Virus record (IMG/VR): IMGVR_UViG_3300007508_000029
Location: 1-29,150 of that record
Length of the DNA stretch: 29,150 bases
Reading direction: 5' to 3' (one strand)
Source: a virus
The notes below the pieces were generated by a model. That model had not been told where the DNA came from. It saw only the letters and a list, made by a program, of their open reading frames with translations, and made no database searches. The stretch's first letter is position 1. Each line of letters begins with the position of its first letter. The position numbers and the translations under genes are program-made. Below are positions 10,971-27,903 of this stretch, piece after piece.

Positions 10971-12326
10971 ATGAAACAATCTAAATTTTTATTTGGAGCT
11001 TTGATTCTATCTGCTCTTTTCTTTAGTAATAATGTTCAATCTGATCCTACAGGAGATTGTACAACAGGAGAATTTTGTGAGCAGAGTTCATTAACAACTA
11101 CAAATACTACAACAACTACCAATACCAACAATAATACTAACACTAATTCAAACACTAACACTAACACCAATTCCAACACTAATAATAATACAAACACTAC
11201 AACAACTACTGGTACTCAAACAAATACTAACACAAATAACAATACTAACACTAGTACCAACACTAATTCAAATACTAATAACAATACTAACACTAGTACC
11301 GCCACAAATACCAACGCTAACACCAATGTTAATACGACTACGACAACTGGTACGAACACCAATTCAAATACAAACACAAACAATAGTACATCTACTAGTA
11401 CTAATGTCAATAGCAATACAAATAATTCGACTGTATCTAGCACCGTAAATTCTAGTAATACCAATAATAATAATAATACTAGTAGTAATACAAATATAAA
11501 TACAAATTCAAATAACAGCACTAGTACTAGTACAAATAATAATACTAATAATAACAACAACATATCAACTAATACAAACAATAATACAAGCACGTCTACA
11601 AGCAATAATACAAGCAATAATACAAACACTAATAATAATAATAGCACTAGCACTAGTAATAATACAAACACTAATAATAGCACTAGCAATAACACTAACA
11701 CAAATAATAATAACAATACTAGTACTAGTTCCAGCGATAATAAGAATGTTAATATTAATAGCTCTAATTCAAAATCAGACGTTACAACTGACAACAAAAA
11801 TGTAAATGAAAACACTAGCACATCTGATAATACAAATAGAAACATTAACGAATCTAAGTCTGAACAAACTATCAATCAAAATATCACGCAAAAAGCACCG
11901 CCTGCTTCTGCGATTGCTCCTAGTATTATGAGTTACAGTCAAGACCTTTGTACTGTAGGTAGATCAGGCGCGTTTCAAGGTCAAGTCTTTGGAATCTCTA
12001 CAGGTGCTACAGTCCGTGACGAGAACTGTGAACGTTTAAAACTTTCAAAGTATCTATATGATACAGGTATGAAGGTAGCAGCAGTTGGAATATTGTGTCA
12101 AGATCCTAGAGTTTTTAAAGCGATGCAGATGGCAGGAACTCCGTGTCCTTATTACGGTAAGATCGGAGCAGAAGCTACACTTGCTTGGCAAGAAAATGTA
12201 AAAGACAGACCAGACTATAAAGAAGCTAGAGCTAAATATATAGATAAATGTAAAGGTACATTAAACAATGCTGGTTTAAGAAAATCCAGAGGAACCTGTG
12301 TTAAAGAATTTAACAAAGGCAACTAG
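10971..12326 (+). CDS. Exported Asn/Thr-rich repeat protein with Cys-rich C-terminal domain
   Basis: This 451-residue protein has the strongest ribosome site of the window (AGAGGAGGG, six bases before the ATG). Residues 1-24 form a Sec signal peptide (Lys near the start, hydrophobic core, likely cut after 'NVQS'). Residues ~43-255 are an extreme low-complexity region of Asn, Thr and Ser, ending in an Asn/Lys/Glu-rich stretch to ~305. The last ~135 residues form a compact domain with six Cys (beginning 'SQDLCTVGRSGAF'); with two more near the N-terminus the total is eight, consistent with periplasmic disulfides. From memory, the C-terminal domain recurs in uncultured marine phages. Function unknown; a surface, periplasmic or virion-decorating role is possible. 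Confidence 0.6.
   Translation: MKQSKFLFGALILSALFFSNNVQSDPTGDCTTGEFCEQSSLTTTNTTTTTNTNNNTNTNSNTNTNTNSNTNNNTNTTTTTGTQTNTNTNNNTNTSTNTNSNTNNNTNTSTATNTNANTNVNTTTTTGTNTNSNTNTNNSTSTSTNVNSNTNNSTVSSTVNSSNTNNNNNTSSNTNINTNSNNSTSTSTNNNTNNNNNISTNTNNNTSTSTSNNTSNNTNTNNNNSTSTSNNTNTNNSTSNNTNTNNNNNTSTSSSDNKNVNINSSNSKSDVTTDNKNVNENTSTSDNTNRNINESKSEQTINQNITQKAPPASAIAPSIMSYSQDLCTVGRSGAFQGQVFGISTGATVRDENCERLKLSKYLYDTGMKVAAVGILCQDPRVFKAMQMAGTPCPYYGKIGAEATLAWQENVKDRPDYKEARAKYIDKCKGTLNNAGLRKSRGTCVKEFNKGN
11100..11740 (+). repeat. Low-complexity AAY/ACN codon repeat (Asn-Thr tract)
   Basis: About 640 bases consist almost only of AAT/AAC, ACT/ACA and AGT/AGC codons, encoding the Asn/Thr/Ser tract. Short imperfect units such as 'aatactaacac' recur many times. 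Such sequence is prone to length change by slippage or recombination, and G is nearly absent from the coding strand. Confidence 0.85.
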
Positions 12327-21190: not shown

Positions 21191-22955
21191 TCCAATTATC
21201 TCCTGCTTTATATTCGGCATCCAAAGGACACTCCATGTTAAAATATTCTCCTGCATCTTTAATAGCTTGGACTGCAAGAGATCCAAAATTCTCTACATCT
21301 TTTTCAACGACTTCTACTTGCCACTCATCGTGAACATTAGCGACAAATTTAAAATCTAACTTTTCTTTTGTTGCCTTATCATTCAACAACATAAGAGCCT
21401 TTTTCATTACAACAGCACCTGCACCTTGTAGCAAACTATTTAAAGATGCATGAGGATGTCGTATGTAAATCTTCCTTCCGTCTAATCCTTTGAGATAACC
21501 CTTTGTCGATGCTTTTGATACTCTCTCTCGAAGTCTTCTAAATGCAGGGTTATTAGCAAAGAAATGTTCTTTAAGTCTTGCTCCATCTTTTGCGTTTCCT
21601 CCAACCACTTGTCCAATTTTTTTATTTCCTGCTCCGTACAAGAGTGCATAGATGAAAGTTTTGCTCTGATCTCTTGATTTAAGTCCTGCAGTTTGTTGAT
21701 TACGTTGGTGGATGTCTCCGTTGATAATTTCATTTGTAAATTCCTCGTCTTTCATATAATGTGCAAGCATTCTTAATTCTAATCCTGAAGCATCAACGCC
21801 TACTAATTTATAACCTTCAGGAACAATCCAACAAGACCTACATTCTTTTCCGTAAGGACTTTTTAAACTAGGTATTTGTTGTGTGTTTGGACTCCTAGCT
21901 GACATCCTGCCAGTTATTGCTCCAGTGCATATGACAAAGCCATGTATTCGATCATCGTCTTCAACGGCCTCTATCCAGGAATCAATAAGAGCTATTCTTT
22001 TTTGAAGTAATAAATAATCAGCGATCAGTTTTACTTCAGGTATATTTTTTATCTTGCTTAATCTTCTTTCGTCAACAATAGGTTGACCAGTAGGTGTAAA
22101 ATCCTGTGGTTTCCATCCAAAGTCTTGTAAGTATTCTCCTATTTGTTTCCTTGAGCCTAAGTTAAAATCTTGTAATTTCTTTCTCATAAACGGTTCTGGT
22201 TTAGATGTAACCCACTCTCCGTTCTCGTCTTGTTCAGGTTCTCTTAAAACTATTTCAGTAAGGACTTTATCGTATTCTTCATCTGTTAATCCTCTTTTGG
22301 ATAATGTTCCATCTTTCTTTATGTACGGATTAACTTCACGCACATTGACAAGTTTGGGTTTGAAAACTTTATGAACCTCATCTTCTGCATTTTGCATTTT
22401 CTCTCGTAGGTCAGCAGATAACATCGTTGCTTGATAAGTGTTGAATAAAAAACCATTTTCTTCTTGTTGTTTTAAAATTTTTGAAACTTCTTGTTCAATC
22501 TTTACACTTTCTTTTGAAAAGCCTTTGGATTCTTCTTTTAATTTTTCATGTACTAAAGTATTTAATTGAACATCACGAACACAATACTCTAACATTTCTT
22601 TGGAGTATTCTTCGTATTCTGTAAAGTCTATTTTGTGGTATTTTAAGCGGTATCCCCACATCCCTAGACTATGACCTCCTTCTCTACTAGGATTGAATAA
22701 CCTAGATAAAACCAGAGTGTCAATAAGTGTTTTGTGAGATAGATCAACACCTAATAATTTATGTATTACTGGAATATCAAAACCTATTATGTTGTGGCCT
22801 ACTAATGTGTCTGCTTTTTGAAGTAACTCAAGACCTGACTCCAGTTGAGGAGGAGCAAATTTATAAATCTGACCAGAGCCAGAATCTTGAGCGACAATAC
22901 ACCACACTTTGGTGGCTTTTAAATCATCTGTTTCTATATCAAAGACTAATTCCAT
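21177..22955 (-). CDS. Family A DNA polymerase, T7 gp5-like
   Basis: This 592-residue replicative polymerase carries a 3'-5' proofreading domain: Asp6 and Glu8 in 'FDIETDD', Asp60 in 'GHNIIGFD', Tyr124 and Asp128 in 'EYCVRD'. The polymerase domain has 'TGR' at 348-350, motif A 'VDASGLELR' (Asp388), motif B from Arg428 through Lys432 to 'LLYG', and motif C 'VHDE' (Asp543). The residue equivalent to E. coli Phe762 is Tyr436, as in T7 (Tyr526). About 60 residues (roughly 203-262) sit where T7 carries its thioredoxin-binding loop, but thioredoxin binding cannot be inferred. It starts ten bases inside the helicase gene, with GGAG upstream. It is shorter than T7 gp5 (704). Confidence 0.96.
   Translation of the reverse strand: MELVFDIETDDLKATKVWCIVAQDSGSGQIYKFAPPQLESGLELLQKADTLVGHNIIGFDIPVIHKLLGVDLSHKTLIDTLVLSRLFNPSREGGHSLGMWGYRLKYHKIDFTEYEEYSKEMLEYCVRDVQLNTLVHEKLKEESKGFSKESVKIEQEVSKILKQQEENGFLFNTYQATMLSADLREKMQNAEDEVHKVFKPKLVNVREVNPYIKKDGTLSKRGLTDEEYDKVLTEIVLREPEQDENGEWVTSKPEPFMRKKLQDFNLGSRKQIGEYLQDFGWKPQDFTPTGQPIVDERRLSKIKNIPEVKLIADYLLLQKRIALIDSWIEAVEDDDRIHGFVICTGAITGRMSARSPNTQQIPSLKSPYGKECRSCWIVPEGYKLVGVDASGLELRMLAHYMKDEEFTNEIINGDIHQRNQQTAGLKSRDQSKTFIYALLYGAGNKKIGQVVGGNAKDGARLKEHFFANNPAFRRLRERVSKASTKGYLKGLDGRKIYIRHPHASLNSLLQGAGAVVMKKALMLLNDKATKEKLDFKFVANVHDEWQVEVVEKDVENFGSLAVQAIKDAGEYFNMECPLDAEYKAGDNWSETH
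21179..21204 (-). repeat. Direct repeat copy 1 (polymerase end / HNH start)
   Basis: On the minus strand this copy reads AGGAG-A-TAAT, then TGGA, then (G)TGAAACACACT. It encodes the C-terminus of DNA polymerase and, in another frame, the ribosome site and first codons (Met-Lys-His-Thr) of the HNH gene. Copy 2 begins the GIY-YIG gene with the same four residues. Confidence 0.6.
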
Positions 22956-25779: not shown

Positions 25780-26589
25780 TTAAATTTGATCTGGATAGTT
25801 TTGTTTAATATAAAAAGCTCTTTCATTTAAGTATTGTGTTTCTTCTGTGTCTAATATACAACGGCCTATATACTCTACGACTGGCGGAACGACAGCATTA
25901 CCTAACTGTCTAAGTCTGTATGCCCTTCTGGGAATCCCATCATCCATTCCACTAGGTTGACTGATAGGTAACCATTCCTTTTTTCTTTTTTCGCTACGCA
26001 TGGCGCTAATCTGTATTTGTGAGCATACTTGGCTAGATTCCTCCAATCTTTTGCCGTATCTTTGTAATCTCTCGATGTTGGGGTAGGCAACGATAAAAAC
26101 TCTTTCCCTTCTGTGAATTGCACCAACGGAACAAGCGGATATAATATGCCATTCCGCATCATACCCGATCTCCCAGAGATTTTGTAAGACCAATGCAAGT
26201 CCTTTATTTCTAAGGGATGCGACATTTTCGATAATTGCCCAGGAAGGTTGGATTTCTTCAATGAGTCTTGAGAATTCTTTCCAGAGGCCACTTCTTTTTC
26301 CTGTGATACCTCCTGTTTTGTCTCTGTCGATGTTCGCGTCTGAGATGTCTTGGCATGGGAATCCTCCCACAATAACATCTGGTTTTTTAATTTTTCTTTC
26401 TTTGATTTTTTCATAAGTTAAATTATTTATGTCGTTAAAAATAGGAACACTAGGCCAATGTTTTTGTAAAACCTTTTGACAATCAACATCGTTCTCACAA
26501 AAGGCAACAGTCTTGAATCCGTTTGTTCGTTCTAATCCAAGACTGAAACCTCCTATTCCAGAGAATAGGTCTAAGACATTTAAAAACAT
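25780..26589 (-). CDS. DNA cytosine-5 methyltransferase
   Basis: This 269-residue C5 methyltransferase transfers a methyl group from S-adenosylmethionine to cytosine in a specific sequence. Motif I 'DLFSGIGGFSLG', motif IV 'GGFPCQDIS' with catalytic Cys79, motif VI 'ENV' (121-123), motif VIII 'HRRERVFIVA' and motif X 'LGNAVVPPV' (229-237) are all present in canonical order. The target-recognition region (about 168-222) is unusually short. No partner restriction enzyme is seen, so it is probably an orphan enzyme protecting phage DNA. The ATG directly follows the preceding stop. Most of its length is also open in a second frame (25902-26414). Confidence 0.95.
   Translation of the reverse strand: MFLNVLDLFSGIGGFSLGLERTNGFKTVAFCENDVDCQKVLQKHWPSVPIFNDINNLTYEKIKERKIKKPDVIVGGFPCQDISDANIDRDKTGGITGKRSGLWKEFSRLIEEIQPSWAIIENVASLRNKGLALVLQNLWEIGYDAEWHIISACSVGAIHRRERVFIVAYPNIERLQRYGKRLEESSQVCSQIQISAMRSEKRKKEWLPISQPSGMDDGIPRRAYRLRQLGNAVVPPVVEYIGRCILDTEETQYLNERAFYIKQNYPDQI
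25902..26414 (-). other. Overlapping 170-codon frame inside the methyltransferase gene (+1 frame)
   Basis: A frame shifted +1 relative to the methyltransferase stays open for 170 codons. It encodes a Lys/Ser-rich beginning, then 'LSLPTPTSRDYKD', and near the end 'NLVEWMMGFPEGHTDL'. From memory, '[WL]PTPTxxD' and 'EWxMGFPxGWT' are recurrent motifs of proteins annotated in phage genomes. Here they arise from the nucleotides that encode 'IVAYP' and 'DDGIPRR' in the methyltransferase frame. The ATG at 26414 has no ribosome site; internal ATGs (for example the one beginning 'MLLWEDS') exist. Whether it is translated is unknown. Confidence 0.35.
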
Positions 26590-27699: not shown

Positions 27700-27903
27700 C
27701 TATTCCTCTGTTAATTTATAAGTTATAAGTTTGTTGTTATTGTTGTTGTTATTGTCGTAAACAGTTAAATATTTAGAGCCGTTCATGCCGCTAATCCAAA
27801 ACTTTAAATTAAAACTGGCTACAAAAGGCCTATCTTTTATTTTTCTAATGATGCGTTGCCTATAGTCTTTTGGATAGTGCCAGGATAAAGGTTGTTTATT
27901 CAT
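27700..27903 (-). CDS. Small hypothetical protein with Asn run, 67 aa
   Basis: A basic first half ('YRQRIIRKIKDRPF') is followed by 'FNLKFWISGMNGSKYLTVYD', resembling a short beta-hairpin, and a run of seven Asn residues coded by AAC/AAT repeats near the C-terminus. It overlaps the upstream gene by eight bases. No family recognised. Confidence 0.45.
   Translation of the reverse strand: MNKQPLSWHYPKDYRQRIIRKIKDRPFVASFNLKFWISGMNGSKYLTVYDNNNNNNNKLITYKLTEE

Follow-up and report, generated by a model that had tools for sequence, protein, structure and literature searches.

Analysis of a stretch of viral DNA (the window, i.e., the whole stretch of 29,150 nucleotides that was analysed) revealed a C5 methyltransferase gene that contains a second gene, read in another frame of the same strand. 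This second frame is a real coding sequence. It is highly likely that the two frames specify one C5-cytosine methyltransferase composed of two polypeptides, encoded by a single DNA stretch read twice; no experiment has been carried out on this enzyme. The outer frame (alpha, frame 0) would provide the catalytic large domain with motifs I to VIII and X, including the cofactor and catalytic-cysteine sites. The nested frame (beta, frame +1, with an internal start) would supply the target-recognition region, beginning at LPTPT, together with motif IX (VEWMMGFPEG). Alpha and beta are inferred to assemble into one enzyme, the most likely role of which, also inferred, would be protection of phage DNA from host restriction.

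Two overlapping frames at the methyltransferase locus

The alpha frame encodes 269 amino acids on the minus strand (25780..26589) and contains motifs I to VIII and X without motif IX. The deduced protein matched the profiles PF00145 (E = 1.4e-45, 156.6 bits, with a gathering cut-off of 22) and phrog_363 (E = 1.2e-70). Motif IV (GGFPCQ; 26350..26367, minus) carries the catalytic cysteine, and its residues P78 and C79 are invariant, as are R161 and R163 in motif VIII (RRERVFIVA; 26086..26112, minus) and G230 and N231 in motif X (RLRQLGNAVVP; 25885..25917, minus). Motifs VIII and X are joined by a disordered, weakly constrained linker (residues 172-222; 25924..26076, minus), which overlies the beta recognition region and motif IX.

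The beta frame is located at 25902..26414 (minus, stop included) and encodes 170 amino acids from an ATG in the +1 frame relative to alpha, exactly as stated in a preliminary description of this DNA. Its product matched the profile phrog_1008 (E = 2.5e-17). An N-terminal extension (residues 1-105; 26100..26414, minus) is overprinted on alpha motifs IV to VIII, and across alpha motif IV the beta frame reads EDSHAKTS. It is followed by the presumed target-recognition region (residues 107-149; 25968..26096, minus), which opens with LPTPTSRDYKD (26058-26090) and in which P110 and T111 are near-invariant, and by motif IX, LSVNLVEWMMGFPEGHTD (25914..25967, minus). The overlay of motifs noted in the same description was recovered as well, with LPTPTSRDYKD lying over RVFIVAYP... 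and VEWMMGFPEGHTDL over GMDDGIPRR....

The nested frame had also been described as unusually long for a shadow frame on its strand, and the sole other same-strand shadow of at least 80 amino acids (21482-21733) indeed encodes only 83. Shadow frames on the opposite strand reach up to 219 amino acids in the window, and length by itself is therefore not decisive. One 219-amino-acid frame (11216-11875, minus), antisense to a gene of 451 amino acids (10971-12326), is longer than the beta frame. Elsewhere in the window, a 67-amino-acid open reading frame (27700-27903, minus) contains an asparagine run (DNNNNNNNNK) resembling a trinucleotide repeat.

Coding status and inferred translation of the nested frame

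The openness of the +1 frame was compared with that of shuffled sequences, in which synonymous codons were permuted so that the encoded methyltransferase and the codon usage stayed unchanged (n = 20,000 for the window). The +1 frame of the window is open for 171 codons, compared to a mean of 54 and a maximum of 143 in the shuffled sequences, 0/20,000 of which reached 171. The survey comprised 80 viral and 80 cellular loci, picked by the methyltransferase profile only. A profile of the second frame matched 80/80 viral and 74/80 cellular loci, nearly always in the +1 frame. At 73 of the 80 viral and 58 of the 80 cellular loci, the +1 run exceeded the shuffles (p ≤ 0.05), and the +2 control run did so at 2/80 and 3/80 loci, respectively. 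The comparison with codon-shuffled controls suggested in the preliminary description thus favors a coding frame. The PTP motif occurred in the second frame of 91% of the viral loci versus 9% in shuffles, and MGFP occurred in 80% versus 0.5%. The earlier impression that the motifs 'PTPT' and 'MGFP' are conserved in their own right is borne out by these frequencies.

The +1 frame could be open and appear conserved merely because the underlying methyltransferase protein is conserved. Part of the similarity among the +1 frames is indeed forced by the methyltransferase, because the median score of codon-shuffled frames with the second-frame profile was still 77 bits. However, the real frames scored a median of 161 bits, and the real +1 frame outscored all five of its own shuffles in 80/80 viral loci. 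With the openness results and the third-position and dN/dS tests reported below, which likewise reject it, the explanation as a shadow only is practically ruled out.

For the analysis of dN/dS, each change was classed according to its consequences in the two frames. The pairs were disjoint but otherwise uncorrected for phylogeny, and the counts were uncorrected for multiple hits; the contrasts therefore weigh more than the values themselves. When the window was compared with the six homologues closest to it, alpha third positions differed by 0.10 to 0.14 in the overlap versus 0.14 to 0.62 outside. In the window clade, the dN/dS of the +1 frame was 0.15 (0.10-0.21) in the overlap versus 0.78 outside, and that of the +2 frame was 1.79. 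The 18 disjoint pairs drawn from all loci gave 0.31 (0.27-0.36) in the overlap versus 0.84 outside, with 1.52 for the +2 frame. Across the family, alpha (0.17) was more constrained than beta (0.44) over motifs IV to VIII, and beta (0.30) was more constrained than alpha (0.65) from the end of motif VIII to motif IX. The location of the recognition region and motif IX in beta predicts such a switch of the more constrained frame along the gene, and the switch was observed. These results indicate that purifying selection acts on both frames.

Synonymous-site conservation and dN/dS in both frames had been proposed as a check, and they revealed a +1 frame that is strongly constrained inside the overlap. 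Frequent stop codons in the +1 frame of close homologues, or an absence of excess synonymous constraint, would have refuted the original suggestion; both were tested, and neither was observed. The preliminary description had left a choice between a widespread overprinted gene and annotated 'PTPT' proteins that are mere shadows of the methyltransferase. The second option is rejected by openness, dN/dS, and shuffle scores. The first is supported by purifying selection of its own, by openness beyond the shuffles, and by an enrichment of internal start signals.

These start signals were analysed in 224 nested loci. An in-frame ATG no more than 150 nt upstream of motif IV was present in 81% of them versus 38% in shuffles, and such an ATG with a strong Shine-Dalgarno sequence was present in 25% versus 2.6%. 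No clear Shine-Dalgarno sequence was found at either beta start of the window, i.e., at 26414 or at the alternative ATG at residue 13 (26376..26378, minus). This missing signal is the weakest point for the window phage, in which translation of beta is inferred and not shown. It would also be compatible with entry into the second frame by a +1 shift of ribosomes translating alpha, in the vicinity of motif VIII. Such a frameshift would yield a fused chain instead of requiring internal initiation, and in many loci the same four bases, CCCA, located between motifs VIII and IX, permit a +1 step. However, the CCCA sequence is explained by the joint coding of YPN and TPT, and a fused product would be without motif X. 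Moreover, signals for an internal start (ATG and Shine-Dalgarno) are strongly over-represented, and the N-terminal part of beta is constrained, though it would be absent from any frameshift product. A frameshift is consequently regarded as very improbable, and internal initiation remains the preferred mode of beta synthesis.

In three loci (L343:2502-3258, a relative of the window locus in the Escherichia coli PT62 prophage, WP_230069165.1; L209; and L311), the start of the second frame follows that of alpha by about 4 nt (GTGAATGAG); this frame covers almost all of alpha and extends slightly beyond it. In an enterobacterial locus, the beta ATG is positioned 4 nt after the alpha GTG. Given this spacing, alpha and beta might share one ribosome-binding site.

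Motif IX and the proposed division of the enzyme

C5 methyltransferases need motif IX, which is placed between the target-recognition region and motif X. Alignment of alpha to M.HhaI placed HhaI motif IX (RVMGYPDSY) opposite alpha residues that do not match motif IX, and the +1 frame reads VEWMMGFPEG at the aligned place. In single-chain relatives, 'LNPDWVEWLMGYP' or 'MSPYFVEWMMGFPEGWT' is found in the methyltransferase frame directly before motif X. Profile comparison of the beta end with single-chain C5 methyltransferases yielded a match with 97.3% probability (E = 2.5e-11, 23 columns). These three lines of evidence indicate that the nested frame ends in motif IX; judged from its sequence, LSVNLVEWMMGFPEGHTD represents the C5-methyltransferase motif IX that is missing from the outer frame. 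Beta is matched to known enzymes by motif IX only and not by the recognition region. It is very probable that the nested gene specifies the methyltransferase subunit with the recognition region and motif IX, and not an unrelated small phage protein. The earlier suggestion of a small overlooked phage protein is thus correct in that the gene is real and usually unannotated, but its product appears to be a subunit of the same methyltransferase.

Structural models were generated with AlphaFold from alignments that did not include deposited phage records. The alpha model was confident for the large domain and motif X and matched M.HhaI (Z = 24.9, 222 residues aligned). It was without an ordered small domain, and residues 172-220, which lie over the beta recognition region, were disordered (pLDDT of about 45 to 57 in the linker). 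The beta model had a mean pLDDT of 62; the C-terminal part alone was fairly confident, and the first 70 residues were disordered. Searching with this low-confidence model in Foldseek gave no useful match and no solved relative, a result that carries no weight for a model of such confidence, and comparison of the beta profile with the sequences of solved structures also found no relative. The fold of the recognition part is therefore unproven. That both chains are needed for methylation, that alpha and beta form a complex, and that beta has the recognition role are inferences and have not been shown.

A real nested gene might also have a main function other than completing the methyltransferase, e.g., as a regulator or an anti-restriction protein. 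The N-terminal 105 residues of beta have no counterpart in other methyltransferases, yet they are constrained, and in L115 a second locus has retained its beta intact next to an alpha that has decayed. On the other hand, beta ends in motif IX, which is absent from alpha and in frame in single-chain relatives, and every beta in the gammaproteobacterial loci examined was accompanied by an overlapping methyltransferase frame. Such a different function is accordingly considered unlikely, and a subunit that completes the methyltransferase remains the favored assignment. An endonuclease in beta, suggested by a D-x-K following PTPT, was dropped, as these residues are not conserved. A search for an HNH insertion gave no HNH match in beta or in 32 homologues.

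M.EcoHK31I is part of a restriction-modification system and has the known site YGGCCR; its small gene is reportedly nested inside the large gene in another frame. In this enzyme, motifs I to VIII and X are located in the large polypeptide and motif IX is located in the small one (PMC3404938). According to the title of Lee et al. (1995), as cited in PMC3404938, M.EcoHK31I requires two proteins in vitro. The window enzyme resembles M.EcoHK31I (and M.EaeI) in that alpha also has motifs I to VIII and X without IX and beta carries IX, and the second gene likewise lies inside the first in another frame, as is reported for M.EcoHK31I. In contrast to that restriction-modification enzyme with its known site, the window enzyme is encoded by a phage gene; the sequences were not compared directly. 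Furthermore, the predicted recognition domain of M.EcoHK31I was placed in the large chain (PMC3404938), whereas constraint and modelling put recognition in beta of the window. The M.EcoHK31I prediction counts against the placement proposed here.

M.AquI is also a split C5 methyltransferase, whose small chain carries motif IX as well as motif X (PMC3404938). The division into catalytic and recognition parts is shared with the window enzyme, but motif X of the latter is in alpha, and the M.AquI-type criterion is not met. A few relatives, e.g., L181, do resemble M.AquI in this respect, their second chain holding both motifs. In ShiLan-type loci, an HNH protein is encoded out of frame within a phage methylase gene as a mobile insertion (PMC11855218). 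A second out-of-frame protein inside a phage methylase gene is common to both cases, but the window locus has neither an insertion nor HNH.

Distribution, annotation, and variants

The nested arrangement was found in 74 of 78 viral and 53 of 74 cellular loci that could be classified, the latter including Pseudomonadota, Bacillota, Bacteroidota, Actinomycetota, Chloroflexota, and archaea. In this common phage methyltransferase family, complete nesting of one gene inside another, with measurable selection on each frame, is the usual state, and the double-coded arrangement extends to phages and prophages of many bacterial phyla. The second frame was present in 15 of 369 gammaproteobacterial genomes. 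A search for the product as a free-standing gene had been suggested in the preliminary description; it was made in these 369 genomes, and each locus examined had an overlapping methyltransferase frame. The overlap arrangement is already known as an oddity, of the kind known from M.EcoHK31I. Within the literature searched, the finding that nesting is the norm in a large phage family appears to be novel; no earlier report of the overlap across phages was found there (most subscription journals were outside this search). With its exceptionally many members, the family lends itself to studies of how constraint is shared by two frames and of the splitting and re-fusion of genes.

In most deposited records examined, alpha alone is annotated. 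Only the outer gene is listed in the records of phiGT1, S-H1, SG4, Spikelee, a Porphyromonas phage, a Leptospira plasmid, and E. coli PT62. Phage Lily (NC_028841.1; L008:1264-1755) is one of the few with both frames annotated, the inner one as gp63, 'g62 internal gene', and part of the nested frame is listed in the record of Microcystis phage Mwe-JY08. Since alpha alone is usually annotated, specificity is assigned to a chain that is probably without the recognition domain, and alpha cloned alone would probably yield an inactive enzyme. The family phrog_1008 ('DNA methyltransferase', 329 positions) was matched by 103/103 nested products, i.e., beta of the window and 102 aligned homologues; comparison of nested products with NCBIfam gave no matches. 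The label of phrog_1008 implies a methyltransferase, but the matching products are without catalytic motifs and correspond to the second chain. This correspondence appears to be unreported.

In a tree of the catalytic part (FastTree) with many weak branches, the single-chain enzymes of L088 and L257 fell within the nested group and near the window. With this reservation, we read them as natural fusions of alpha and beta. In L183 (L183:2501-3276), motif IX is in frame with motifs I to VIII, and motif X is encoded by a separate overlapping open reading frame, which is a third way to split the same enzyme. The enzymes of L021 and L071 apparently consist of three pieces.

In L115 (L115:912-1952), a second methyltransferase copy is located directly behind the first. 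The alpha frame of this copy is without motifs I to IV and X, and its beta frame is open for 347 amino acids with PTPT repeats and motif IX. The extra beta is a candidate for an exchangeable beta. On the basis of such cases and of the constrained N-terminal extension, beta may tentatively be viewed as an exchangeable specificity subunit that re-targets the phage methyltransferase and is held in place by overprinting on the catalytic gene, a possibility that we consider doubtful.

Comparison of phage Ochi17 (L004:947-1862) with Spikelee (L003) revealed that alpha breaks near motif VI and resumes in another frame, so that alpha and beta are each split in two. This locus is annotated as two methyltransferase genes, and a similar situation was found in Llama, Modragons, and OfUltron. 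In E. coli PCP07014 (L344:979-1780), alpha is disrupted by an internal stop codon, and close to this point the second frame is broken as well.
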